Shown: piece after piece, positions 2-47,800 of the stretch | How positions within the stretch are numbered: the first letter of the stretch is position 1 | Layout: each line of letters starts with the position of its first letter | Assembly (NCBI RefSeq): GCF_000003815.2 | Contig: NC_049983.1 | Coordinates: forward strand, 15,076,234-15,140,233 | Length of the DNA stretch: 64,000 bases | Reading direction: 5' to 3' | From: Branchiostoma floridae | Lineage: Eukaryota > Chordata > Leptocardii > Amphioxiformes > Branchiostomatidae | Notes under the pieces: model-generated | Database searches by the model: none | What the model saw: only the letters and a program-made list of their open reading frames with translations | What the model was told of the DNA's origin: nothing | Made by a program: the position numbers and the translations under genes

Positions 2-3000
2 ATAGATGGTGGTACAAATATAACAATTCTGGGAGACAACCTTGGTGACATGGCCATGGCTGACACGCACATTGTCAGGATCTGGGGACAGGAGTGCGCA
101 CTAGTGGAGCATGCAAGTGACTTCAACAAGTAAGTGCAAGGCAATGACAATTTTTTCTTTCTTTTGAACTAAATTGATACCAGAAAACATTTTTTTATGT
201 ACATGAAGTAGCTGATTAGTAACATAGCACACATGTGATCAAGAAAGCTGCAGTTTTTATCAGTTTGGAGTTGTAAGGTTCAAGTTGCTTTTTATCCCTT
301 TCTATCCCCAGTGAAAATTCACAAGTAAATGGTGTGACATTTCAACGAGGAGGCAAACAATGTTAAAGTTTTCAGAAATGTATTTCTTAATGTGTTGGCA
401 TAGCTGAAAGGTGAAAGCAGATCAAACTTGAAGTGTATGCTATACAAAGCTTATACATGTACTTTTTCATACTGGATAGTGCAATGCAGTAGGATCATGA
501 CTAGCAAACCTAATCCCTGTTGTTGTCTGTGTTCATGTAGACTTGTGTGCACCACAGCCCCTAGTGAGGTAGCACAGGACCATGTGACAGTGGAGGTCCA
601 TGAGGAGTCTGCTGCTCTGGGCTACACCATCAGTGGCACAGGTTACTCCAGGCAACCCTTCAGCTATGTGGTGAGTCTTAGTAATGCTTTCCACACATTC
701 CAGACCTCCTTTGAACTAATGTACATTGTATATTGTACTTACAACAAGGTGCTCAGAATCTGACAGACTCACAACTATGTCAGACTGAGAAATGTGTCAT
801 TCAGCACCAAGGACAGGTCTGCTATTCACATCAATGTTAGAACTAATGTATATTGTGTATTGTACATTTTGTACTTCCAGCAAGCTGTTCAGAATCAGAC
901 TCAGTTGTCATTCAGCACCAAGGACAGGTCTACTGCTTACATCAACATTAACCTTTGAGTTTTCAGAACCGAAGGGCCACCTAGCCACCTAGCACTCTGT
1001 TTGAACTAAATATTTCATTGCTGTTCTCATAATGACTACAGGATCCCCAAGTGACAAGCATCAGCCCAACCCTGGGACCCAAGGCAGGTGGGACAGTCCT
1101 TATAATCACAGGACAACACCTGGATACCAGCAGGGGTCCTCAGGTCTCTGTGGCGGGACAGGTGTGCAGGATACAGAGGTAAGAACAGTTAAGAACTGGA
1201 GCATTGTATATAGAATTCACACATTAAGATAAGCAATCTAAAAATCTCCAGAGTTGATTAAATGAAACACTGTTTTAGTGTATGGCAGATAACATACAGC
1301 CAATGCTTCTCACATGACAGATACTCAGTAGTTGTTTTGAAGCTTTGAATTTTTGTTGAGGCAATTTTGAACTTCTTGAATGTTACTAACTAATGATCTT
1401 CTTGTTTCCAGTATTTCAGATGACACACTGGCATGTATGACTGCCCCATCATCCACACCGACATCTGGACCTGTCTCGCTGACTTGGGACGGAGCCACAC
1501 GATACACAGATGACTTGTTCACATACACAGAAAACCCTGCAGTCACTGATATCATCCCAAAGAGAAGCTCTTACAGGTGATACACTAGTAGATATTTTAC
1601 TAAGCAACTGTCAACATGAAATCCCTCTTATGATTCAGATGTTTTGTTTTCAACAGAATATTGTTTATATATAATGCTTGTTTTTAAAAACAGGGTATCT
1701 AGGTTTAGCAAGTTGATGGACAGGATTTGAAATTGCATATTTTTTCCCAATACATTTTCATGATATTGCAGTTTGAAACCACCATCCATTCATTAACTTG
1801 GGCTCATTTCCTCATGTGTACGTTTTCATAAACCAAAATCATTCAGGTTGACAGGGCATTTCTTTCTATTCAAAAGGTTTTGAACATGAAATGTTTTCTT
1901 TCCAGTGGAGGTACTGAACTCAATGTGACAGGCGTGAATTTACATAGTGTGGCTCAACCCAGGATGAACTTCAGTTTTCTACAGGGGAATGAAGTGGTCT
2001 CATTCCTTCAGGTAGGCAAGGAATAAGACATGGAAAATACTTTATCCAATAACATATTCAGACTATCACGAAGTTCAGGTAAAACGTTAAAACAGCAGAA
2101 GCACAGTACTAGAAACTACATGATATTATAAACTTAGTATGTAAAATCCATATATGATGATTTCAATTACCAAGAATATCTTTCAAAATCCATAATGTTT
2201 TCCTCCCAGACTTGCATCCATGCAGAGTCAGCCAGGTCAACTCAGATGATCTGTCAATCACCCAATATCTCCAGCAGGCTCCACCCACTCCCAGCTCCAC
2301 AGCCAATCACAGTACAGCTCTCTCTGGTGTTAGATGGAGTGCTGGATGAGCCATCTCCAGACCTGAGATATTTTACCTATTACCCTGACCCTGTGTTCTT
2401 CAGTTTCGACCTTAGTAAGGCATATCCCAAGACTGGGAGAACATTGATGCTCAGGGTATGTATCTGTGACTGCAAGTGAGCCTCTCAAGTAGATTAACAT
2501 TCATGTATGATGAAAACATTGGAAGAAATTTGATGTACGTCATGTAGATGAATGTTGCAACTGTTTCCATTTACAGTAACTTTGTTAAAGCTTCACGGAA
2601 TGCATGGAAAAAGTATTGTCATTACAATTAGATAACAGGTATGAACTGCCATTAGATTCAAAGTTGGTCTGGAAGGTAATAAAACAGACAAACATATTTT
2701 TAAGTTTTGATCCTCCTTTCTCTTTTTGAAGGGTGACCACCTTGACAGTGCACATGGTATCAGAGACTTCACAGTGCTTGTAGGACAACATAGTTGCAGA
2801 GTCACATTGCTGAACTCACAGGTTGGGTGATATGCTTTTGTCTTACTCTTAGTTTAGAAACTTTATCCACAAAGCTTTGAGAAGTTCAACATTTGCATGT
2901 TGTTCTTATATCACAAAGCCTGCACAGCAATTGCCTTTCTGTTTCACATTTTAACGTTTTATGTCTTGTGTTTCAGGAACTACACTGCCTTTTGCCAGAA

Positions 3001-6000
3001 GACCAGAAGTTTAGCAACTATACAGATGCACCAGTGATGGTAATGTAATGATCAAATACTGCCTTGACATTGAATTTGATTTAGTTCATTTCAAACATGT
3101 TGCCATATGTTATATTACAATATGTGACAATTTGCACAATTACAGAAAACAATCTCTTATTTGAGATGTCAATAACTTTCTTAAATGTATTGTACTTTGA
3201 TTTGATTTATAGGTCAATGTTGGAAACCTTCAATTTACTGTTGGTGAGTTAAAACTACAGTTTGCTCATAGCAAGAAGGTCCCTGATGCCATCATCATCT
3301 ATGTCTGTGCTGCCATTGTTTTGTCAATCCTGGTCCTTGTGGCTCTATTGGTTGCCTGGAAGCGACGCCATGGCAACCCCATCATCAGGAGGACCAATAG
3401 GAACGGCTTGTGGCATGTCCCTGATGAACAGATAGCCATGGTGGACATGAGCAGTCCTGCACCACAGCCTGATCCCATCAGTGTGGCCAGGCAGCTGTCC
3501 AGGGACAACAGTAAGTGTGCCTCTTTTGATTTCCTTTGTCTTAATGAGGTTTATATGTTACCTTCACAGAATAGAATTCTGATTCTCCTTCTCCCTCTTA
3601 TTTGTCCATTTTAAACAAATAAGATCAGTCACCTTTATTTCTCCCTGTAAAATACAAACTTTAGAATCACAGACTGTTTGTCTAGAATTTATGCCCAGTT
3701 ATTTGACACATTGACAAATTTAATTTTGTATACATTGCAGCTGTTGTTTCACTACCTGTACCTGTAGCAACTAAAATCAATAAACCTGTTGAGCCAGAAA
3801 ATATAACTTAGATGCATTTACAATGTGAGCTACATTTCAGCTCTCATCTCTGTCCCTCATTCCCATCCCAGATTATGAGTCCCTCCCATCTGAGTATGAA
3901 AACAACACCCTGGGCAGACTGAGGTGTGATGACCCTGACCTGGCTGCATCTGTGGAGGAGACTCTGATCCCCAGACAGAAGCTCCACCTACATAACATCA
4001 TTGGCAAAGGTACTGCAGCTGTTCACCCTTTGATAAGCACAAAAAACTGGCAGACTCACATCGCATACTTAGACAAGTGGATCAGCATCTGACCTTAAAT
4101 GCAGAGGGTTTCGAACAGCCAATAAAATCATGCTGGTCAGTATGCATGACAAAGAATGAGTTACTAAGTGTTCATGTCAAAAAACAGTGTTACTATTGAT
4201 ACTATGCCTACTAATGTTTGTCTTACAATGCAGGTTTCTTTGGAAGTGTTTTCTATGGAACATACCAACATCCAGTAGAGAAGGAGCCTGTCAGAGTTGC
4301 TATCAAGACTCTCAACAGTAGGTGCACTATGTGGTTAACAATGTTTGCTTGAATCTTATCAATTCCCATATATTTTTTTGCCATAAGTGACAAACTTTAC
4401 TGTAAAAACAAATATACACTGATCATCTCACACTGTCTTTCTTAATTTTCTTAAAGATTCGGTTAAGTAAAAAAAAGCTTCCTTTACAGCTTTGTAGTTT
4501 CTGTGCTGTCCTTTTTATGATATATTGTGTGGTTAATTTTATCAACTACCATTTTAGTTTATTTGCTGTTAATACTATAAAGTATAATCAAAATGTCAAC
4601 AATGTCTTTTCCTTCCAGGAGACAACTGTGACATGAATGACATAGAGAACTTCCTGCGGGAAGGCATCATGATGAAGGACTTTAACCACGAGCATGTCCT
4701 GCACCTGGTGGGGGTCAGTCTGCCCACTACGGGCGCTCCGCTGGTCGTCCTGCCCTACATGAAGCTAGGGGACCTACACAGCTTCATCAGGAACCCTCAA
4801 CAGGTATGGAACCTGGTACAACTCTGGACTTCAGAATCTCAAGTTGTACTACAGGACTAGAAATATACATAATGTGATGTTTTCATGGAAGCTTATCTGT
4901 GTTGGTAGTAATCATAGTACAATACTCAAATTTCTTCCATCACAGGTATACACGGGTCAAATTTTCATCGACCACTGGTGCCTTCTTCAGGATCAATGGT
5001 CTTTTAGAAGGTGATAGTGGTCGATGAAAATTTGATCCGTGTATACCTTAGCGTTGGAAGAAAGTTTAGCATTGTACTATAATGTTATGTTATTTATCAT
5101 ATGTATGTAAAGTACTGTCAGTAGAATATATCTTGTGAATGTGGAGGAGTAGACTGTGTGGTATTTGGCAGGTCAGTTTTTGTCAATTTTCTTACAGTGT
5201 ATGAACTCCTGTTACTGTTTGATCTTACATGCTCCGATGGTTAACTGTGATTCCAGTTGCTGACTGTACAAGACATCCTAGGATTTGCACTGCAAGTGTG
5301 CAAGGGAATGGCGTATCTATCCAGTCTGAAGTTTGTTCACAGAGACCTGGCTGCCAGGAACTGCATGTGAGCAGGCTGTTCTATATGATTTTATGTAGTT
5401 ATGCTTAACTTCATGTTATCGTTTGTTTGGACAGCTGGTTTACTTATGTCACAGACTGTTCGATAGACGCATGTGACCCTTACACTGGCAAAAACCTGTT
5501 GAAAACCTTCCTCACACTATCAAAGACCTGTCCCTGGTACTGAAAACCTTCCTTATACTAACAAAGACCTGTCCCTGGTGCTGAAAACCTTCCTCATCCT
5601 AACAAAAACCTGCCCCTGGTGCTGAAAACCTTCCTCACGCTATCAAAGACCTGTTCTTGGTGCTGAAAACCTTCCTCACCCTATCAAAGACCTGTCCCTG
5701 GTGCTGAAAACCTTCCTCATCCTAACAAAGGCCTGTCCCTGGTGCTGAAAACCTTCCTCACACTATCAAAGACCTGTTCTTGGTGCTGAAAACCTTCCTC
5801 ACCCTATCAAAGACCTGTCCCTGGTGCTGAAAACCTTCCTCACCCTATCAAAGACCTGTCCCTGGTGCTGAAAACCTTCCTCACACTATCAAAGACCTGT
5901 CCTTGGTGCTGAAAACCTTCCTCACACTATCAAAGACCTGTCCCTGGTGCTGAAAGCCTTCCTCATCCTAACAAAGACCTGTTCTTGGTGCTGAAAACCT

Positions 6001-7587
6001 TCCTCATCCTAACAAAGACCTGTCCTTGGTGCTGAAAACCTTCCTCACCCTAACAAAGACCTGTCCCTGGTGCTGAAAGCCTTCCTCATCCTAACAAAGA
6101 CCTGTTCCTGGTGCTGAAAACCTTCCTCATCCTAACAAAGACCTGTCCTTGGTGCTAAACACCATCTAAATGCCTTAAGGAAACTGTCCTTGGTACTGAA
6201 CACATTCCACACACTTACAAAGACCTATCCCTGGTACTGAAGACGATTCACATGCCTTGAAGGAACTGTTCCTGGTACTGAACACCAGCGAAGACCAGTT
6301 CATTTATGGAATGGAATTGTCATTTCTTCCTCTGATTTTGGCTGAAATGATTGCTTGATCAATGGATCATTCTGCTAATTGGATGATTACCCAAAGTTTT
6401 TCACTAAGTTTCTCCCACCTTTTCCCTCCAGGGTTAGTGAAGACTTGGTGGTGAAGGTGGCAGATTTTGGATTGTCCCGAGACCTGTATGAGAAGGACTA
6501 CTATACCTGTGGGGATAAGAAGGCCAGACTGCCTGTCAAGTGGATGGCACTGGAGAGTTTGTTAGATGGTACCTACACGACCAAGAGTGATGTGGTTAGT
6601 ACTAGTATGTAGAATCTTGTTCATCTAGATGACATATCCTAGTGTGCTAGAAAAGGCGTTTCTTGTATGTGTGCATATCAGATTTTCTCTAGGGTATTCT
6701 TCCCATAGTATCCACTGCTATTTCGGTAGATACGTATGGGCAGAACATTCATCATTGTTGTATCTAAATGATTATCTACTTCAATCATAGGCTCCATAGA
6801 AACATTTTGATTGGTCTTTCCAGTGGTCCTTTGGAGTGTTGATGTGGGAGCTAGCCATGAGAGGAGTGAACCCATACCCAGATGTGGACAACTTTGACCT
6901 GGCCGTGTACCTACAGCGGGGCAGCAGGCTGAGGCAGCCAAAGTACTGCCCAGATCACATGTAAGTACTGTAGTGGGGGAATATAGCCTTGAAAACCCAC
7001 TCTTTCCATGGGGCTCCAAGCAGGTGGAAGTAATATCAACAAACTGCACTAAACTGTAATGTTACATTTCTTAAGCAATGCCATGCAAGGTTACATTTTT
7101 GTACATCTAACGTTATACTGCTAGATAGTCTTCAAGATCTCACAGTGTGACAGTGAGTTGAATCATTGTAAGCTTAATTGTTTGAAATATTAGTGCTTGG
7201 TGAGTTCATTGTTAACTAATTCACTATTGAGAAGTCACCAGTAACCAATTTGATTGTAGTAGGAACCAATTTGATTGTGGATGCTGTCACTACTAAACAA
7301 AAGATTGCTGATTACTGGTCTGTGGCAGTCTCATTACCAGATCTTATATAAAATGAACTTCAATGAACTTTTGGTTTCACCTATCTAAGTTTCTGTTATT
7401 TCTTCCCACAAACAGCTATACCATGATGCAGCAGTGCTGGCAGGTAGAGCCTGACCTCCGACCGACCTTTGATGACCTTGTGTCCCGGCTGAGTGAGGCA
7501 TTACCACCCACCAGCCCTGTTCCTGAGGGAGAACAATCTGTTCAAGACTTTGAAGAATGCTATACTGATGTCTTAGCAAGAGCATGA
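2..7587 (+). CDS. MET/RON-type receptor tyrosine kinase, C-terminal 783 aa (5' part outside window)
   Basis: Single-pass receptor tyrosine kinase of the hepatocyte growth factor receptor family. Exons read: 2-129, 541-670, 1042-1178, 1412-1576, 1906-2011, 2210-2455, 2732-2821, 2977-3039, 3213-3510, 3872-4009, 4234-4317, 4619-4803, 5257-5366, 6432-6594, 6824-6960, 7416-7587; all junctions are GT-AG and keep frame. Four IPT/TIG domains occupy about residues 1-355 of this fragment ([44 protein letters not shown]). A membrane segment follows at about 381-404, then basic WKRR. The kinase has a glycine loop [11 protein letters not shown], the VAIK lysine, HRDLAARN (618-625), DFG (638-640), a MET-like twin-tyrosine activation loop (Y650, Y651) and WMALESL. 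SEMA and PSI domains should lie upstream of the window. The tail after the kinase is only about 30 residues, ending in YTDVLARA. It could be orthologous to the MET/MST1R ancestor or a lancelet paralogue, so no symbol is given. Family call is very secure. Confidence 0.95.
700..950. repeat. Diverged tandem duplication in an intron of the receptor kinase gene
   Basis: Two adjacent segments of roughly 110-130 bp share GAACTAATGTA, TATTGTAC, the run around TCAGAATC, and a terminal block containing TTCAGCACCAAGGACAG (at 800-816 and 911-927). The second copy is shorter. The same 17-mer occurs in the 41-bp minisatellite 5 kb downstream on the opposite strand. Confidence 0.75.
4931..5063. repeat. Intronic foldback (hairpin) element, 133 bp
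   Basis: Left arm 4931-4986 and right arm 5006-5063 are inverted copies. The core is 31 bp (4945-4975 against 5017-5047) with a single mismatch, flanked by shorter paired runs including TTTCTTCCA / TGGAAGAAA at the ends. The loop is about 20 bp. It sits in the intron between kinase exons 4619-4803 and 5257-5366. A small non-autonomous foldback element is the likeliest explanation; a transcribed hairpin is possible. Confidence 0.85.
5501..6290. repeat. 41-bp minisatellite carrying a RE1-like motif, about 16 exact-period copies
   Basis: The run GAAAACCTTCCTCA recurs at 5501, 5542, 5583, 5624 and on at exactly 41-bp steps to 6116, sixteen units without an indel. Three or four degenerate units follow to about 6290. 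Units differ by a few substitutions (CACACTATC, CACCCTATC or CATCCTAAC variants). Read on the minus strand each unit contains TTCAGCACC, two bases, then GGACAG. Because 41 is not a multiple of 3 the array is not a coding repeat. It lies between kinase exons 5257-5366 and 6432-6594. Confidence 0.97.
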
Positions 7588-9884: not shown

Positions 9885-10898
9885 TCATGAGAAACTGGGA
9901 GCCCTGAGTTTGGAGCACTGTTTCAGTCTTTCTTTTACCTCCTGTGCAACAGCCAAGACTTCCTCAGGAGTGCCCTTTTCTATAACTTCCCTCGCGTATG
10001 TGCAGCTACCTCGAACACGGGCTGCGCTCACGGCTACCGCGGTGATGTTCTCTAACAACTGCCTGTTCTTTGTGGTCTCCACACGTTTGAGCTGCTTTAT
10101 TCTCTCGTCTCTTTCCATCTGTATCGTCTGTATAGCCCGCCTGGCTTGCTCTTCTATCTTCGCAATATTTTCTTCACATTGTTGCTGCCATACTTCACGC
10201 CTTGTATTCAGCTCTTGTAGTCTCTTCTCGTGAAGTGCAGCAACCTTCTCTGTCTCCACCAGGAGCGCCCTGACTTCCGAAGTTTCTCTCTCAGCGGTCT
10301 CCCGTACCTGTGAGTGCAGACGTGCTCTGTGTTTGGAGAGGCTGCCTTTTCGACATATGAAGTCATGACAAGACTTACAATAGAGGACATCAGGGTCTGC
10401 GTGTAATGAATGCGAAGTTCGTTCCGTCTCTTGGGTTCCTTCTGCTTTACTCTCTGTCGGTGTGGACGAGAACATTTTTCGACGCGGTGACGCCCTCGTG
10501 CGAAGGTCGGAGCCGACGCAGTTCTGACACAGGAAGTCGTCGCAATTATCACGATACCTGGTTGTACTGGACATGTCGCCACAGCTTCTACACACAGCCC
10601 TCGATGCTGAGCGCCTTTCTGGAGCCTCCTCGCGGTGTGTTGCGTTGCGGACCATGTCGTGCAGTTTGCCAACGAAAAAGTTGTCCTTTAAACCGGCGAT
10701 ACCGTTCTCATACTGATATGTAGAAATCTGTCGACAAGTCGGGCAACAGATCTTCGTCTTGTTCCCGACCATTCGCTCCAGACACCGCCGACAGAAAGTG
10801 TGAAGGCACGGGAGAACTTTCGGTTGTCTATAGTCGTCCAAACAGATCTGACAGACCAGAAACTCCCGAGTGATATCACTTACCAGTTTGTCCGCCAT
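9885..10898 (-). CDS. Intronless TRIM-like RING/B-box/coiled-coil protein, 337 aa
   Basis: A single uninterrupted frame starting ATGGCGGACAAAC. RING C3HC4 finger at residues 16-55, with C16, C19, C31, H33, C36, C39, C52 and C55 all in place, implying E3 ubiquitin ligase activity. Next come a B-box1-like region (CRSCG ... CQNC, about 100-135) and a second Cys/His cluster (CKSCHDFIC ... HRARLH, about 170-200). A charged coiled coil of about 205-300 follows (EKVAALHEKRLQELNTRR; MERDERIKQLKRVE). It ends soon after, with no B30.2/SPRY, NHL, filamin or other C-terminal domain. Lancelets have many TRIM-like genes, often intronless. It could be a complete short family member or a copy lacking its 3' end. 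The symbol cannot be assigned from sequence alone. Confidence 0.9.
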   Translation of the reverse strand: MADKLVSDITREFLVCQICLDDYRQPKVLPCLHTFCRRCLERMVGNKTKICCPTCRQISTYQYENGIAGLKDNFFVGKLHDMVRNATHREEAPERRSASRAVCRSCGDMSSTTRYRDNCDDFLCQNCVGSDLRTRASPRRKMFSSTPTESKAEGTQETERTSHSLHADPDVLYCKSCHDFICRKGSLSKHRARLHSQVRETAERETSEVRALLVETEKVAALHEKRLQELNTRREVWQQQCEENIAKIEEQARRAIQTIQMERDERIKQLKRVETTKNRQLLENITAVAVSAARVRGSCTYAREVIEKGTPEEVLAVAQEVKERLKQCSKLRAPSFS

Positions 10899-35000: not shown

Positions 35001-38000
35001 ATGACAGTTATTCTGAGAATTTCAGGGGTCTGGTTATTTTTTGCTACCTAACCAAGCACGATGGGCCTTGGAATAATTATTAGTTCCCTTCCCACTTTAA
35101 TTTTTTGTCTTAGATAATTTGTTTAAAACACTGTATCATTTGCAGTTATAATTGTTTCTGCCAGAGGATTTTCCCAGACACAGAAATTATGTTCAATATT
35201 GACTTGTCTGTGAAGTAAGCCAGTTGTAGCCTTTTCAGCACCAAGGAGAGCACCTATCCTGGTGAATGTAGGAACTTCATCATCTTCATGTTACAGTTTG
35301 CATTCAACCAATGTATCATATCCTCTGTGTACAGGAACCTGATTGATGATTGGATGGAGCACTACCGTATCGCCATGCACATCAGGTCTCCCCACCTCGC
35401 CACGCTGTCGCACCGTCCTGGTAAACAGTCTGCCCGACGTACGATCCAGTCCGCCCGCCCCGCCGCGAAGACTCCTCTGACCTCGCTCTTCCACCAGATC
35501 TCCAAGGATGAGGATGGGGATGAGGAGGGGGAGAAGGTGGAGGAGAGGAACCCTCCCACCAAGCACCAGTCCTTCCGCTCCCCATCAGCACCACCGCGGC
35601 ACATGATACAGGAGAGGCCGCTGACGGCAGCCTCGTCACGGCCCTTCAGCTCAGCAGAGGCGCTGTCAAGAAAGGGTGAAACAGACTCCAGAGTGCGTCT
35701 GGATCTGGGGAGTGCTAAAGAGGGAGAGCCCAAGTCCCAGGCTGGGTCTGCCAAGACAAGGCAGCAGTCCACTTCCAGTGCAGGGTAAGGATCCCTCTAC
35801 TACCAGTGTACAAAATACTTTTCTGAGCCAAAAGCTCAGCTTGGGGCAAAAACAAAGTTGCACACCTTGTTACACTACCTACAATTCACTAATTTATGAA
35901 AAAAAGGTACAATACATACATACATACATAACCTTTTACATAATCATATTACTTATAAGCAAGCATGTGCACGTGTGTGATTGCTGCTGTTCTGTTCTTC
36001 CGATAATGTCCATCTGCCGAAGAATCTGTAATTACTGATATGGCTAATATGACACAGAGCTGCCTCTGTCTATTTATTTCTTCCAAGTAAATTGACTACA
36101 AAATCGAGTTCTGAGGCTCAAAATCTAAGTTGCACCCTTTGCAACCTGAGTTTAGAAGTAAGTTGCACCAAGCAAAAAGTGGTTGCAATGTGCAAGTGTG
36201 CAAGTGGTATTTTGCACGCTGACTACATGCCTGTCCTTCTGTAATCTACATAAGGATCTCTTTAACTTAGTTTTTCCCATGTAAATTTGTAAAAGCTTAC
36301 ATACTTTAAAAGAGTGGCAAATCCCTTTATTATCCAAGGACCATCTGATTGAAGTTCTGAAAATTCATTAACCCTTTGCTTATTCTTTCCTAGGTCTCCG
36401 ATGCGAGCTCCCTCAAGCCTCTTCCCAAAGAGTGCCAGCCATGCCAACCTGTCCACCCCCGAGCGTGTGCGTACCCCGCTGCGGGAGGGCTGCCCCGTCT
36501 CGCTGCGTGCTGAGATCCTGGGAGAGGGCATCCTGGCCTGCAAGTGTAGCAAGCACAAAGTTCCGCTGGTCATGGACCTGGAATTCGACCGTCTCCTCAA
36601 GGAGTTTCTTCCCAAGAACCAGCTGATAATCATCGCTGTCACCTCTACGTACTACACGAACGCTAACCCGTGTGATTCCATGTTAGAACGGATGTACATA
36701 GACCGGAACAAAAACAGGACGATGCCTTGCGTGCAGAGCCGGTCCGATCCCTTCAGAATATTCAAGTACGACATGGCGGTGGCGGCTGAGCGGACGGACT
36801 ATGACCAGCCACTGCTGCTGAGGAGACACAACGCCGTGGCAGGCATGTTCCTGATGTACTACAGCGGGAAGCTGCTCTTCTGTGACCACATCTTCAACGG
36901 CTATGGTAACGCAAAGAAGGACCTCGTCAAGCAGATACTGAAGACCAAGCATGATGCCAAAATGGGAAACTTCCTGCCAGCTGACTTCCGATTTTGGTGA
37001 GTGTAACACTTTTGCCAGCTTTTGCATGTTATACATGTCGTACACAGCCTTGTAACTGTTTGGCAAAGGTTTGTGTTTGCGACAAGGAGTTTTGTTTGAA
37101 TTTACTGCTTACCTGTACTGGGTAAATAGAACTGAATCAGAGCAGCTGTCTTAATATCACACCATATACTTCCTCACCTAGGTATCAAGAAGCGCCAAAG
37201 TTGAAGGAAAGTCCATTTTAGAGGTCTGGTGGAAAAGATCCCTCAATACTACAGATGCAGACATGTAACTTTGAATGTAGCAGAACAGCACCTATTTGAT
37301 GCACCTGATGTACACTCTTTCAGCACCCGTGTGGCTCCTGTTTTTATGTGTAAATCTACATAAAGTTTTTTCTACAAGAAGTTTTTTCAGCACCAAGGAC
37401 AGCACCTGTCCTGTTGACTGTAGGAACATATTCATGACTTTATCTTCACTATGTTACTATTTTCATTTATCCAATGTATGAACTGTTCATCAAACAGTTT
37501 TCTCCTTTCCTTCTTCTTTTCAGATCTATTGTTTGTATGTTTTGAACTCTGCCATACATAAATTATTGTTTCTATGTGAGGAGTATGAGGGCAATTGGTG
37601 AAAGACTAAAAAGATTTCATTTGTGAGGAGGAATATTGCCTTTTTACCTTCCAAAAGCCAATGTCAGACAGTGAACAAGCTTTGGCCATGTTGATCATCT
37701 CGACGTCACCATATTTTCAAATCAACAGAGGATTGTGTGTATTTTTTGCCTAAAAATCTATGCTCTACAGGGCTTGGTGACCTGCAAACATAGGACAATC
37801 TGTAATATTCCAAGATAATCAAAAGCACACTAGGCAATATTACTGAAGAAAATGTCATTTAGAGCTCACAAACTTGTCGGCCAATCAATTTCCTTGCCAT
37901 GTGACGGGCATATTAGAAACATCTCTTGGAAAAGCCTACTGTACTTTACCAATTAAAAGTCAAGGCTATGAAATGAGTGTCATGAACTAAGATAACCTAT

Positions 38001-41634: not shown

Positions 41635-41855
41635 TCTCGTTGGTTTGTGTTCTTCCAATGATATTCATTAAAGATTTATTTCTGGGGTGTTATTCACTTG
41701 ACATCGGAATGTTACTTGCATAATTTGACCAATGATACTTTTATCTCTCGTTGGTTTGTGTTCTTCCAATGATATCATTAAAGATTTATTTCTGGGGTGT
41801 TATTCACTTGACATCGGAATGTTACTTGCATAATTTGACCAATGATACTTTTATC
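41635..41855. repeat. Direct tandem duplication, 111 bp
   Basis: 41635-41745 and 41746-41855 are identical apart from one deleted T and the outer edge. Both begin TCTCGTTGGTTTGTG. A very recent duplication or an assembly join artefact. Confidence 0.95.
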
Positions 41856-42751
41856 TGTAGTTCCATAGACATTAGACAATATGAATAGTGGTAGCCCCCA
41901 TGCAGCAGCAACAGTTAGTCCCCAGGGTGGTATGATATTTTCATTCAATCCATCCAACCCAAACCTAAATCTCCTGTAGTATCTAAGCCAAATTTAACAG
42001 CATAATTTACTATGAAAAATGTCCTTGTCAATCCCATTTATAGATGGCAAGCTGCTGGCAATGGAAGCTTTGAAAAGTTCAGAAGCTGTTGTAGTCAGAG
42101 CAAACACCCAGCAAACATCCCCGCAAACCAATGAGCAGTTGCTTAGAAGGGGAATTTCATCATATATTTGCCGCGACAAAATGCAACAAACGATACTGAA
42201 TTTAAAACAGAACAAAGCTAAGCCTCCACCACTTAACCCTGCCTGTACCATAGATTAAGCAGGCCCAAAAACCAAGCGAACATGACTAGCCCAAAACAAC
42301 AAATTACTTGTATACAGTATGGAAATGGCATTACCAAAGAAACAAAAAGAAACACAGGACAAATCATACACATACCTTTCTCTTATGCCCACACTCTATA
42401 CAGTTCTCCTCCACATTAGAAAATTGCATCTTCTTCTGTTTAAGTTCAAGTTCAACCATGATTGCCAACAGGGTAAAGGAACTTGTACCGAAACTTAAAA
42501 CTCAGTACTATACAGCTCTAGAAACACCAGAAAGAGTAATAAGCAAACTCCAATTATACCTGACCAACAGATATATAATCTTGTATACTCCCGTCATCTG
42601 GCAAACTGTCAGTGCCACTAAGTAACCTGATACATTGAAGGTGGCCCAGGCCAGATGATGGTTCTACACCCAACCATAATCTGTTTTTAAAACCAAGCAG
42701 ATATTGGGAGGATGCCCCAACCACACAAAAACAGGGTCAACCTATACAGTA

Positions 42752-44852: not shown

Positions 44853-47800
44853 TCATGAGGACCCCTCTTCTTCATCCTCCTCCTCATCGACTGTCCATGA
44901 TTGGGATGCATGTCTGGAAGCAACCAACACCTGGTCGTAGACTTCATCACGGTTAATCATTGCACCAAACAAGTAGGGCTGGGGAAACAAAAGGCAGAGT
45001 TACTGTACAAAGTTCAAAGGCTATTGCAGTATGCAAGTAGACATAGATTTTATCTGTACATTATCAAACACAGAAAATGTAACATCCTCATGATGTTTTA
45101 ATGGACACTGGTTGAGTTACAAACTTTTCCTAGTGGCATCCCTAAAATTGGGAGAGTTACAGATAGAAACTACAGGTATCATACCTTTTCTGCATTGTTG
45201 ACTTTCACTTCTAAGGACATCCCATTACCTGGCATAAATGGTAGAGCTTTGGCCTAGAAGAAGAAGTAAGACATTCAACACCATGTTTTAAAACACTTCA
45301 CATTGTCTAGTAGTTCAACTCAATCTGGTCTAGTCTCTCTTATAGGTCTCATGCAATGCCCCTAAGCAGATTTTGTTACTTTTCTCTCACTTACTTTTCT
45401 GTATCTACTGGTTGCACAGATTTCATTTCATTTAATATAGGACACATGTCTCATAATACAAATATACATTTGACGGAACAGTCAGTTGTCTTTTGTAAGA
45501 AATGCTATTTAAAATTCTTCTGAAACCTGAATATAAGCACATCTCACCTTTTCCAGTCCTACTATGTCCCCTAGCTGGATTTTGACATTCTTGGAAGGAT
45601 TACTCTTGGAGCGTTCATAACACAAGAAACTGAAAGGCAAAAGGCAAAGAAAAATGGACTTAGTATATGAACAGATCATGGATGAATGAACACCAAATCA
45701 GAACAATGAGGCCATCACAAAATTATAAAGATGGTGATGCTCACTTTTTGGTGAGATAGAGCCTGCCATGTTTGATACCCCCGGATGTTAGCCCCTTGTC
45801 CCTGTCAATCAGCACGCAGTGGCGACCATCTTCCCACTCTGCAAAAACAAACAGCACCTTCAGAGATGTTTGAAATGTTTGGTACGTATACACTCCATTA
45901 AAATACATGTATCTGTACGCTTGCAAGACAATCAAAACTTGTAGTCACTCTTTCTTTTTCACACACAAAAAACTTCTTGGTGATTGCTGTAGAAATTGCA
46001 GGTTTGTTACTGTCTTGTACCTTGTACTTTTGAAATCTAAAGTAACTAGAATAAGACAACATTTTCCAAAATGCAGAATGTTTTCTATGTAGCCTTTGTC
46101 AAGCTACTTGCACACATTATACCATTACGTGGGGTCGTTCTTCACTCACGACTTTCCTCACTTCACTTATTGTGTGCAAATAATAAAAAACAAAATTACC
46201 ATTTTGCAATCACAAACCTGTAATTGGTCATATCTATACAGCTAATATGCTGATGCAGTTCTCAGCTCTGATTGGTTCACGGCAGTTCTAAGCTCTGATT
46301 GGTTCCTGACAAAAGAACAAGGAGAAAGAAAACAAACACAACAGCAAAAACGATATGTTTATCCCTTGTTCCACATCTATACCTTGCTGTGGCACCTCTG
46401 TGGAGGGCAGGTTGAAGAGCTGTAGGAACTCTGTGGTGTCTGTGCCAGTGGGTGTGGTGGCCAGGCTGGTCGGGGCACTGTTAACTACAGCTGAAGCATC
46501 GAGTTCTGGGGGAGGTGTGGATGGGATGGGCTACAAAGCAAAGGTCAAGTTTAGGATAGACCGTACTTGTTGAGACCTCTACAGGAAACACATGTCATAT
46601 ACAGACGTGTCTCTTGACTCAACCTTAACCCAACCATAAATACTATTGCAGTTTCTGCAATGATATTGGATACTGTTGGACAAGACTACTGGATACCTTT
46701 CAATAAACTGTTGATCTAAGGGAGAAGTTTCAAAATAATGGATGGCTACTTTTAAACAATGACAAAAATATTCGTCACGACTGAAATCTTCTGGATCAGA
46801 GAGGAGAAGAGAGTAATGTGCAATATCATGAAAGAAATTACAATTTTTTTTACACTTTGTGCGCAGAGGTAAAATATATTGATGAATTAATATATCACGT
46901 TAAATTTCAAACACATTAAGTTACAAGAGACATCTCCCAAGTAACAACCAATCAAAAAAGTGCTCCCTATGTACCAGGTATGGCTCTGATCTGGATCCCT
47001 GCACCACGACCCAGCTGCCTGACTTCAGCTGCAGGTCTGTCGGCAATGTCTGCCAGATCCGGTGGGTGTTGTCGTACTTAGAACGGACTCGCGGGAAACG
47101 TTTGAAGACGTAGTCAATAAGGAACAACTTGATACCAAGGCCAACTCCTAAAGACACACGGAGAAGGGTACGGATTAACTGTCAATACTGATTACCCTCA
47201 GCTAGACATTAGTTATGAATTATATGATTGATATATACTCATTAAACAGACACAATAGTATTGAAAGGCAGTATGTGTTTTGTTTTTCCTTGCAGCAAGA
47301 ACGGTTCAGAATAGTACAGAGTGTATCAGCTCTACACAGTATGCCTGTCCTTGGTGCTGAATCAGTTCTATATCAGTTCAAAAAGTGTAAAAATTAATAT
47401 TACACAATGTTCTACAGCAAGGACTACACTGATGCATTCACAAAATTATGGCACTCCACAGTTGAACACATCATGACTGACAGCAACTTTGTATTGTTGC
47501 TAAATGATAACATAACACACTAATCGTTATAGTAAAAGTTCTGATGCCGTACCAAACATGGGCACCAGGTACTGCCCTGGGATGACACAGCTGGCCAGGA
47601 ATGCCATCCACAGGCTGGAGTACAGCTGCCGGGTGGCCTCTGGATGCTGCCATGTCAGGAGACTACAGACACAGTACAACAGTCAAACACATCTCAGGAG
47701 ACTATAGACACAGTACCGGTCAGACACAAACCAGTCCAGGAGAGCAATCATCTCAAATCACATTGGCCAATACAATTCCATTACAACATAACACTTTTAT

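Follow-up and report, generated by a model that had tools for sequence, protein, structure and literature searches.

Introduction

The closest described relative of the element reported here is the vertebrate repressor element 1 (RE1, also called the neuron-restrictive silencer element, NRSE), the site of the zinc-finger protein REST/NRSF, and gene control by REST is usually treated as a vertebrate matter. The element in question is an RE1-like core of 17 bp that is repeated in a tandem array within an intron of a MET-like kinase gene of the lancelet Branchiostoma floridae, in a 64,000-nucleotide stretch of contig NC_049983.1 (positions 15,076,234 to 15,140,233; hereafter the window). Like RE1, the lancelet core consists of both half-sites separated by a 2-bp gap, and the same genome encodes a REST-like gene that matches REST at the contact residues of fingers 5 and 6; unlike RE1, it mostly lacks the 3' CGCC tail, occurs in tandem, and is present as thousands of exact copies in 513 Mb. 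On the evidence of sequence, the core is likely to be the RE1-type site of this animal.

Three further systems invite comparison. Transposable elements have been linked to the expansion of RE1 in mammals (PMC4499139), and an invertebrate protein, Drosophila Charlatan, is reported to bind NRSE in vitro, with its own consensus quoted as much looser (PMC4901126). Minisatellites inside amphioxus genes have a precedent in the 'mirage' minisatellites of Adh3 and the globins, which duplicate exon-intron boundaries (PMC3087553). The window array differs from these in carrying a recognisable protein site, and boundary duplication of the mirage type is ruled out for it by its position wholly within the intron (5500-6290 inside 5367-6431). 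Finally, the core lies inside bbe-miR-2060c-3p (gttcagcaccaaggacaggc), an entry of the B. belcheri small-RNA table in PMC5650284, and the mir-2060 model of Rfam (RF03662) spans two units of 43 bp from a single array family; the window array falls below the cut-off of that model, and the single cores tested form no hairpins. Among the literature matches listed, none described RE1 sites or arrays in amphioxus, though the core is printed as a microRNA in PMC5650284.

Results and Discussion

An RE1-like array in an intron of a MET-like gene

Tandem Repeats Finder (TRF) identified a tandem repeat at 5500-6241 with a period of 41, 18.1 copies, and 88% matches, and a scan for TTCAGCACCNNGGACAG located 19 cores on the minus strand between 5528 and 6266, with a spacing of exactly 41 bp at 18 of 18 intervals. 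The final three units (6184, 6225, and 6266) are degenerate with their register intact, and the difference between the TRF end and the end of the array at 6290 comprises the last degenerate unit and the edge. The exon following the array-bearing intron (6432-6594) has its best matches, as far as single kinase chains are concerned, in hepatocyte growth factor receptor (MET); when all rows are counted, first place goes to an EGFR chain in which two stretches match. The initial annotation had proposed a tandem array of exact 41-bp period in an intron of a MET/RON-type gene, and both the period and the location are upheld by the repeat search, the core scan, and the exon match; its count of 16 units is revised here to 19. 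Its claim that both core halves are exact in each unit holds for nine of the 19 units, in which TTCAGCACC-NN-GGACAG is present without change, and fails for the other ten, eight with one mismatch and two with two. The RE1/NRSE layout (TTCAGCACC as the left half and GGACAG as the right, 2 bp apart) is nevertheless present throughout, with at most two mismatches in the ten inexact units.

Units were compared with the REST consensus from chromatin immunoprecipitation sequencing (NTCAGCACCNNGGACAGCNCC, 17 fixed positions, as quoted in PMC4901126) by consensus counting in a fixed register, in place of a weight matrix. Nine units agree with the consensus at 15 of 17 positions, eight at 14, and two at 13, compared with averages of 8.0-8.7 for the best placements of shuffled units (300 dinucleotide shuffles per unit). 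These scores confirm the reading of the units as RE1/NRSE motifs, and the comparison with shuffled units suggested in the initial annotation was passed in this consensus form, since only one of the 19 units (score 13) merely equals its best shuffle. The array departs from the vertebrate site at the 3' tail, where C is found at position 18 in none of the 19 units, at position 20 in 17, and at position 21 in two. The full tail CNCC (positions 18-21) is thus absent from all 19 units of the array, and it is complete at 37386.

Further cores in the window

The array is not the only place in the window where the core occurs. Four exact cores (800, 911, 37386, and 47345) and one core with a single mismatch (35234), none of them reported in the initial annotation, lie outside the array in three places: 800 with 911, 35234 with 37386, and 47345 alone. 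The segments 35232-35283 and 37384-37435, separated by 2,152 bp, are diverged copies of each other (87% over 52 bp), and their RE1-like sites are near the full 21-base consensus. In five of the six copies of TTCAGCACC outside the array in the window, the next element after a gap of 2 is GGACAG or GGAGAG, and 25 permuted cores yielded zero matches at one mismatch or fewer outside the array in the window.

Distribution of the core across the genome

The 15 fixed bases of the core have 7,427 exact occurrences (3,462 + 3,965) in the 513,431,437 bases and 431 contigs of the genome, and the pattern read backwards has one, with about one expected by arithmetic chance. A chance origin of the cores is ruled out by this excess together with the permuted cores and the shuffled units. 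The 100 core places listed all fall within the initial 8.7 Mb of contig C1, and the surroundings of 99 were analysed. The 113 exact cores in the resulting 41 stretches of C1 and in the window fall into 47 clusters, of which 36 contain one exact core (34 of 43 on C1 and two of four in the window) and 11 contain two to 25. Single-core clusters therefore form the majority of clusters, and the majority of individual cores sit in arrays. If the sampled stretch is typical, with about 44 clusters per 8.7 Mb, the genome would hold roughly 2,600 clusters.

With one site taken per cluster, and the 15 bases of the core fixed by the search itself, the first gap base is A in 40 of 47 sites, the second is A in 25 sites (G in 11), and G predominates at position 18 (26 sites, against six with C); the remaining flank columns have a weak bias at most, leaving a nearly flat profile. 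When the cores were masked, sequence was shared by 27 of 990 pairs among 45 stretches, and the 64 alignments obtained all kept a distance of at least 40 bp from exact cores in each member, while in no alignment did both members come closer than 98 and 341 bp. A single dispersed element surrounding the sampled single sites is ruled out by this flank comparison, the sequences being unrelated next to the core.

The fixed arrangement of the two halves extends to the sampled DNA. In 216,517 bp, mostly chosen for carrying the core, TTCAGCACC was found 139 times, followed by GGACAG at a gap of 2 in 113 copies, at a gap of 1 in two, and at a gap of 0 or 3-30 in none; vertebrate REST also tolerates halves set further apart. 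Neighbouring cores no more than 1.5 kb apart (up to two mismatches, 39 loci) are on the same strand in 106 pairs and on opposite strands in zero, mostly within arrays; the two cores of locus L011, on opposite strands 2.7 kb apart, are outside this count. Further near-cores were present at eight of 30 loci with one exact core, compared with 0.08 matches for permuted cores over the same 92,139 bp. In 22 core pairs taken at loci carrying between two and seven cores, mean identity is 0.93 in the core and 0.49 in the flanks, a contrast to which the choice of sites by their core contributes. Ten chosen reading frames near cores were searched against Pfam, giving a carboxylesterase at an array locus (L045) and a molybdopterin-binding domain at a single site (L035), with no Pfam domain in the other eight.

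Arrays at other loci

Modal unit lengths are 41 bp in the window, 40 bp at L001, 43 bp at L027, L030, L031, L033, and L048, 47 bp at L037, 51 bp at L045 (which also has 56-bp steps), and 68 bp at L029, where the value comes from one spacer. At L037:572-1354 the array has decayed cores, with one of 22 exact (up to three mismatches) and many 24-bp steps. Ten arrays were compared through their spacer consensus sequences, because masking leaves pieces of array units that are too short for BLAST. Seven of the 45 spacer pairs have z above 2, every one including L030 or L033 and none including the window spacer. The spacers of L030, L033, L048, and L027 resemble each other as one family, and those of L001 and L029 have a weaker likeness to L030.

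These comparisons bear on the explanation that the core owes its spread to a neutral family of satellite or mobile type, in which case the RE1 likeness would be incidental and the single sites would be relics. One 43-bp family evidently did spread, as the mutual likeness of the L030, L033, L048, and L027 spacers demonstrates; L017 and L024 also have weak scores with the Rfam model of that family (29.0 and 28.2 bits), and arrays align with each other in unmasked BLAST. However, five of the ten spacers (window, L001, L031, L045, and L037) have no likeness among themselves, and the arrays therefore arose more than once. Next to the core, the sampled single sites have unrelated flanks, and relics that keep the core while their flanks drop to about half identity would need selection, all of which makes a neutral family improbable as the general explanation. 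Random capture of scattered cores by repeats likewise seems unlikely. The initial annotation had named a genome-wide satellite family with no chromatin signature as the finding that would count against it; the core is indeed genome-wide (7,427 occurrences), but it does not belong to one satellite family, as the spacers differ.

Relationship to mir-2060

It has also to be considered that the core is the mature sequence of a mir-2060 small-RNA system, with the arrays as its genes or sinks. In its favour are the presence of the core in the published bbe-miR-2060c-3p (PMC5650284) and the 15 matches to RF03662 above the cut-off in L033 and L030 among ten loci searched, with L048 slightly under it (53.5 vs 54.5). 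Of six array stretches tested for folding, L033 (z -4.35) and L048 (z -2.57) also gave stable structures. The 94-nt precursor, however, corresponds to two adjacent 43-bp repeat units, and the window array reaches at best 36.2 bits, under the gathering cut-off of 54.5 bits. The four remaining array pairs fold with z of 0.11, -0.49, -0.11, and 0.35, without a stable hairpin (the value of -0.49 being that of the window array, tested as one 90-nt stretch of two units), and two single sites formed no hairpin (z -0.03 and -0.30). A microRNA gene as a general explanation is ruled out by these folding scores, and a small RNA does not account for single cores that occur on both strands amid unrelated flanks. 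That a mir-2060 system underlies the cores is accordingly very improbable; mir-2060 is read here as a small RNA from one array family, perhaps forming a genuine hairpin at a few sites, rather than as the cause of the genomic cores. The mir-2060 precursors at L033:1005-1440 and L030:1060-2938 coincide with pairs of 43-bp units, and their annotation as microRNAs merits review.

A REST-like gene in the same genome

A search with a provisional sequence of fingers 5-8 of human REST returned 275 matches (150 of 6,314 candidates scored), many of them in clusters of C2H2 genes. Several of the loci L049-L064 belong to large C2H2 clusters of one type (KPYMCGECGYRTA... / KPYKCDQCDYSAA...) on contigs C158, C16, C200, C323, and C10. 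The corresponding search with fingers 2-5 (150 of 6,096 candidates scored) placed locus L059 (C4:20317697-20317990) third by E-value, with an identity of 51% that is the highest among the matches listed of at least 85 residues. Its frames read ...YASSQKTHLNRH...YAAANQHEIVRHVRQV, and another frame reads YATADRS followed by a masked stretch. The best alignment of L059 with human REST is ungapped, with 54% identity over 125 amino acids and 134 bits, compared with 34% over 134 residues, 29 gaps, and 84.7 bits for human CTCF. The contact residues of human REST are present at four of four positions in each of fingers 5 and 6, three of four in finger 2, two of four in finger 4, and one of four in finger 3. 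The REST-like zinc-finger gene whose presence the initial annotation proposed to check was thus found on C4, sharing the contacts of fingers 5 and 6, and L059 is a putative REST orthologue of this genome, subject to the reservations that it is partly masked and that the human sequence was provisional. The putative RE1-type target ascribed to the zinc-finger region of the C4 protein is TTCAGCACCAAGGACAG.

N-terminal zinc fingers read the 3' end of a site (the antiparallel rule), and by the recognition code finger 5 (Q, H, R) favours GGA, which is present in the right half of the core. The changed finger 3 lies towards the tail by the antiparallel rule, and this fits the lost tail. No core with two mismatches or fewer was found in the 52,860 bp of the 16 zinc-finger loci, where less than one exact core is expected.

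The abundance of related fingers makes another reader of the core the main rival to REST, most likely a clustered C2H2 zinc-finger protein with an arms-race or recombination role like that of KRAB-ZFPs or PRDM9, which would have the arrays as its targets and would resemble REST in its site through related fingers. Candidates would be supplied by the 275 matches found with REST fingers 5-8, many of which are clustered on C158, C16, C200, C323, and C10, and a factor that induces breakage or pausing where it binds would seed minisatellites. Yet the REST finger 5 and 6 helices, QKTHL.R and NQHE..R, are found in L059 alone among the 16 zinc-finger loci compared (L052 and L057 being partly masked), and agreement at 15 bases with the vertebrate REST site would be hard to gain by another route; such a reader therefore has a small chance of being the correct explanation.

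Interpretation of the core and its arrays

The core, its excess across the genome, the unrelated flanks of the sampled single sites, the clustering of cores on one strand, and a REST-like gene whose fingers match are direct observations, and it is fairly probable that the core is the RE1-type recognition site of the lancelet REST orthologue, some copies of which have been duplicated into minisatellites that include the array in the MET-like intron. The 17-bp core would be recognised by this orthologue as an RE1 mostly without the vertebrate CGCC tail, and its thousands of copies in the genome, many as single sites, would be available for binding. Around some cores, head-to-tail duplication of the DNA would have produced minisatellites of mostly 40-56 bp per unit with one core each in the same orientation, and the site itself might promote this local same-strand duplication. 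The intron array could then act as a platform of many sites for REST and corepressors, damping the gene or marking chromatin. The option of a multi-site binding array raised in the initial annotation is favoured by the single-core clusters with unrelated flanks and by the REST-like gene, and binding itself is still inferred.

The individual steps differ in strength. That bound sites seed minisatellites is advanced tentatively, as is the broader possibility that REST sites repeatedly and independently nucleated tandem duplications of about 40 bp, giving repressor arrays without transposons, with mir-2060 as a by-product of one array family. It is plausible but doubtful that the array works as a platform that reduces expression from the MET-like gene.

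Several points weigh against the REST reading. Sampling was confined to the first 8.7 Mb of one contig, and the conservation of the core is partly built in, as sites were chosen by the exact core. A single site beside a frame for a molybdopterin enzyme does not support a neural target set. The human REST and CTCF sequences used for comparison were provisional, and in the search with fingers 2-5, which scored just 150 of 6,096 candidates, two cluster genes outscore L059 by E-value (1.7e-23 and 3.5e-22 vs 3.8e-22, with 42% and 41% vs 51% identity) and the L059 alignment runs across a stop. The masking of L059 leaves finger 8 and most of finger 7 out of view, and the best 60 of its 149 PDB matches are generic zinc fingers with no REST chain among them. 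Finger 2, which likewise would lie near the tail end, is largely kept, weakening the tail argument. The spacers of L001 and L030 are alike at z 2.5, and unmasked BLAST aligns the L001 array with that of the window at 71% over 189 bp (E 1e-13), a result that can be attributed to the recurring core. Binding, silencing, and duplication promoted by the site are inferred from the sequence.

For an invertebrate chordate to possess both a dense set of exact RE1 cores and a REST-like gene would date this code before the vertebrates, with the two halves as the old parts of the site and the tail as the part gained or lost. The arrays would provide natural tests of whether a tightly bound protein causes local duplication of DNA and of the effect of many sites in a row on a gene, and the status of mir-2060 as a microRNA calls for review.

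Features of the window

Table 1. Positions of the array, its host intron and exons, and the remaining RE1-like sites in the window.
Feature	Position	Strand	Basis
Minisatellite of 41-bp units carrying 19 RE1-like cores, all oriented alike (TTCAG on the minus strand)	5500..6290	-	TRF and core scan
Stretch with nine exact cores (starts 5569, 5692, 5733, 5815, 5856, 5897, 5938, 6020, 6061)	5569..6077	-	Core scan
Array-bearing intron of the MET-like kinase gene, 1,065 bp	5367..6431	+	Predicted from splice signals GT 5367-5368 and AG 6430-6431
Kinase exon upstream of the array intron, ending in HRDLAARNC plus AT	5257..5366	+	Read from sequence
Kinase exon downstream of the array intron	6432..6594	+	Protein match to kinase chains
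Exact core, first of two copies 111 bp apart	800..816	+	Core scan
Exact core, second of two copies 111 bp apart	911..927	+	Core scan
RE1-like site TTCAGCACCAAGGAGAGCACC, 16/17 consensus positions	35234..35254	+	Consensus scoring
RE1-like site TTCAGCACCAAGGACAGCACC, 17/17 consensus positions	37386..37406	+	Consensus scoring
Lone exact core	47345..47361	-	Core scan

Other features of the window are separate from the core. In the intron neighbouring that of the array, 4911-5083 contains inverted repeats like those of a fold-back element, with 52-nt arms that are 83% complementary and 1 nt apart and additional 29-nt inverted arms outside them. An open frame of 337 amino acids at 9885-10898 on the minus strand resembles, by eye, a RING and B-box (TRIM-type) protein. 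At 41635-41856, two 110-bp copies with 99% identity and without the core represent a recent tandem duplication.

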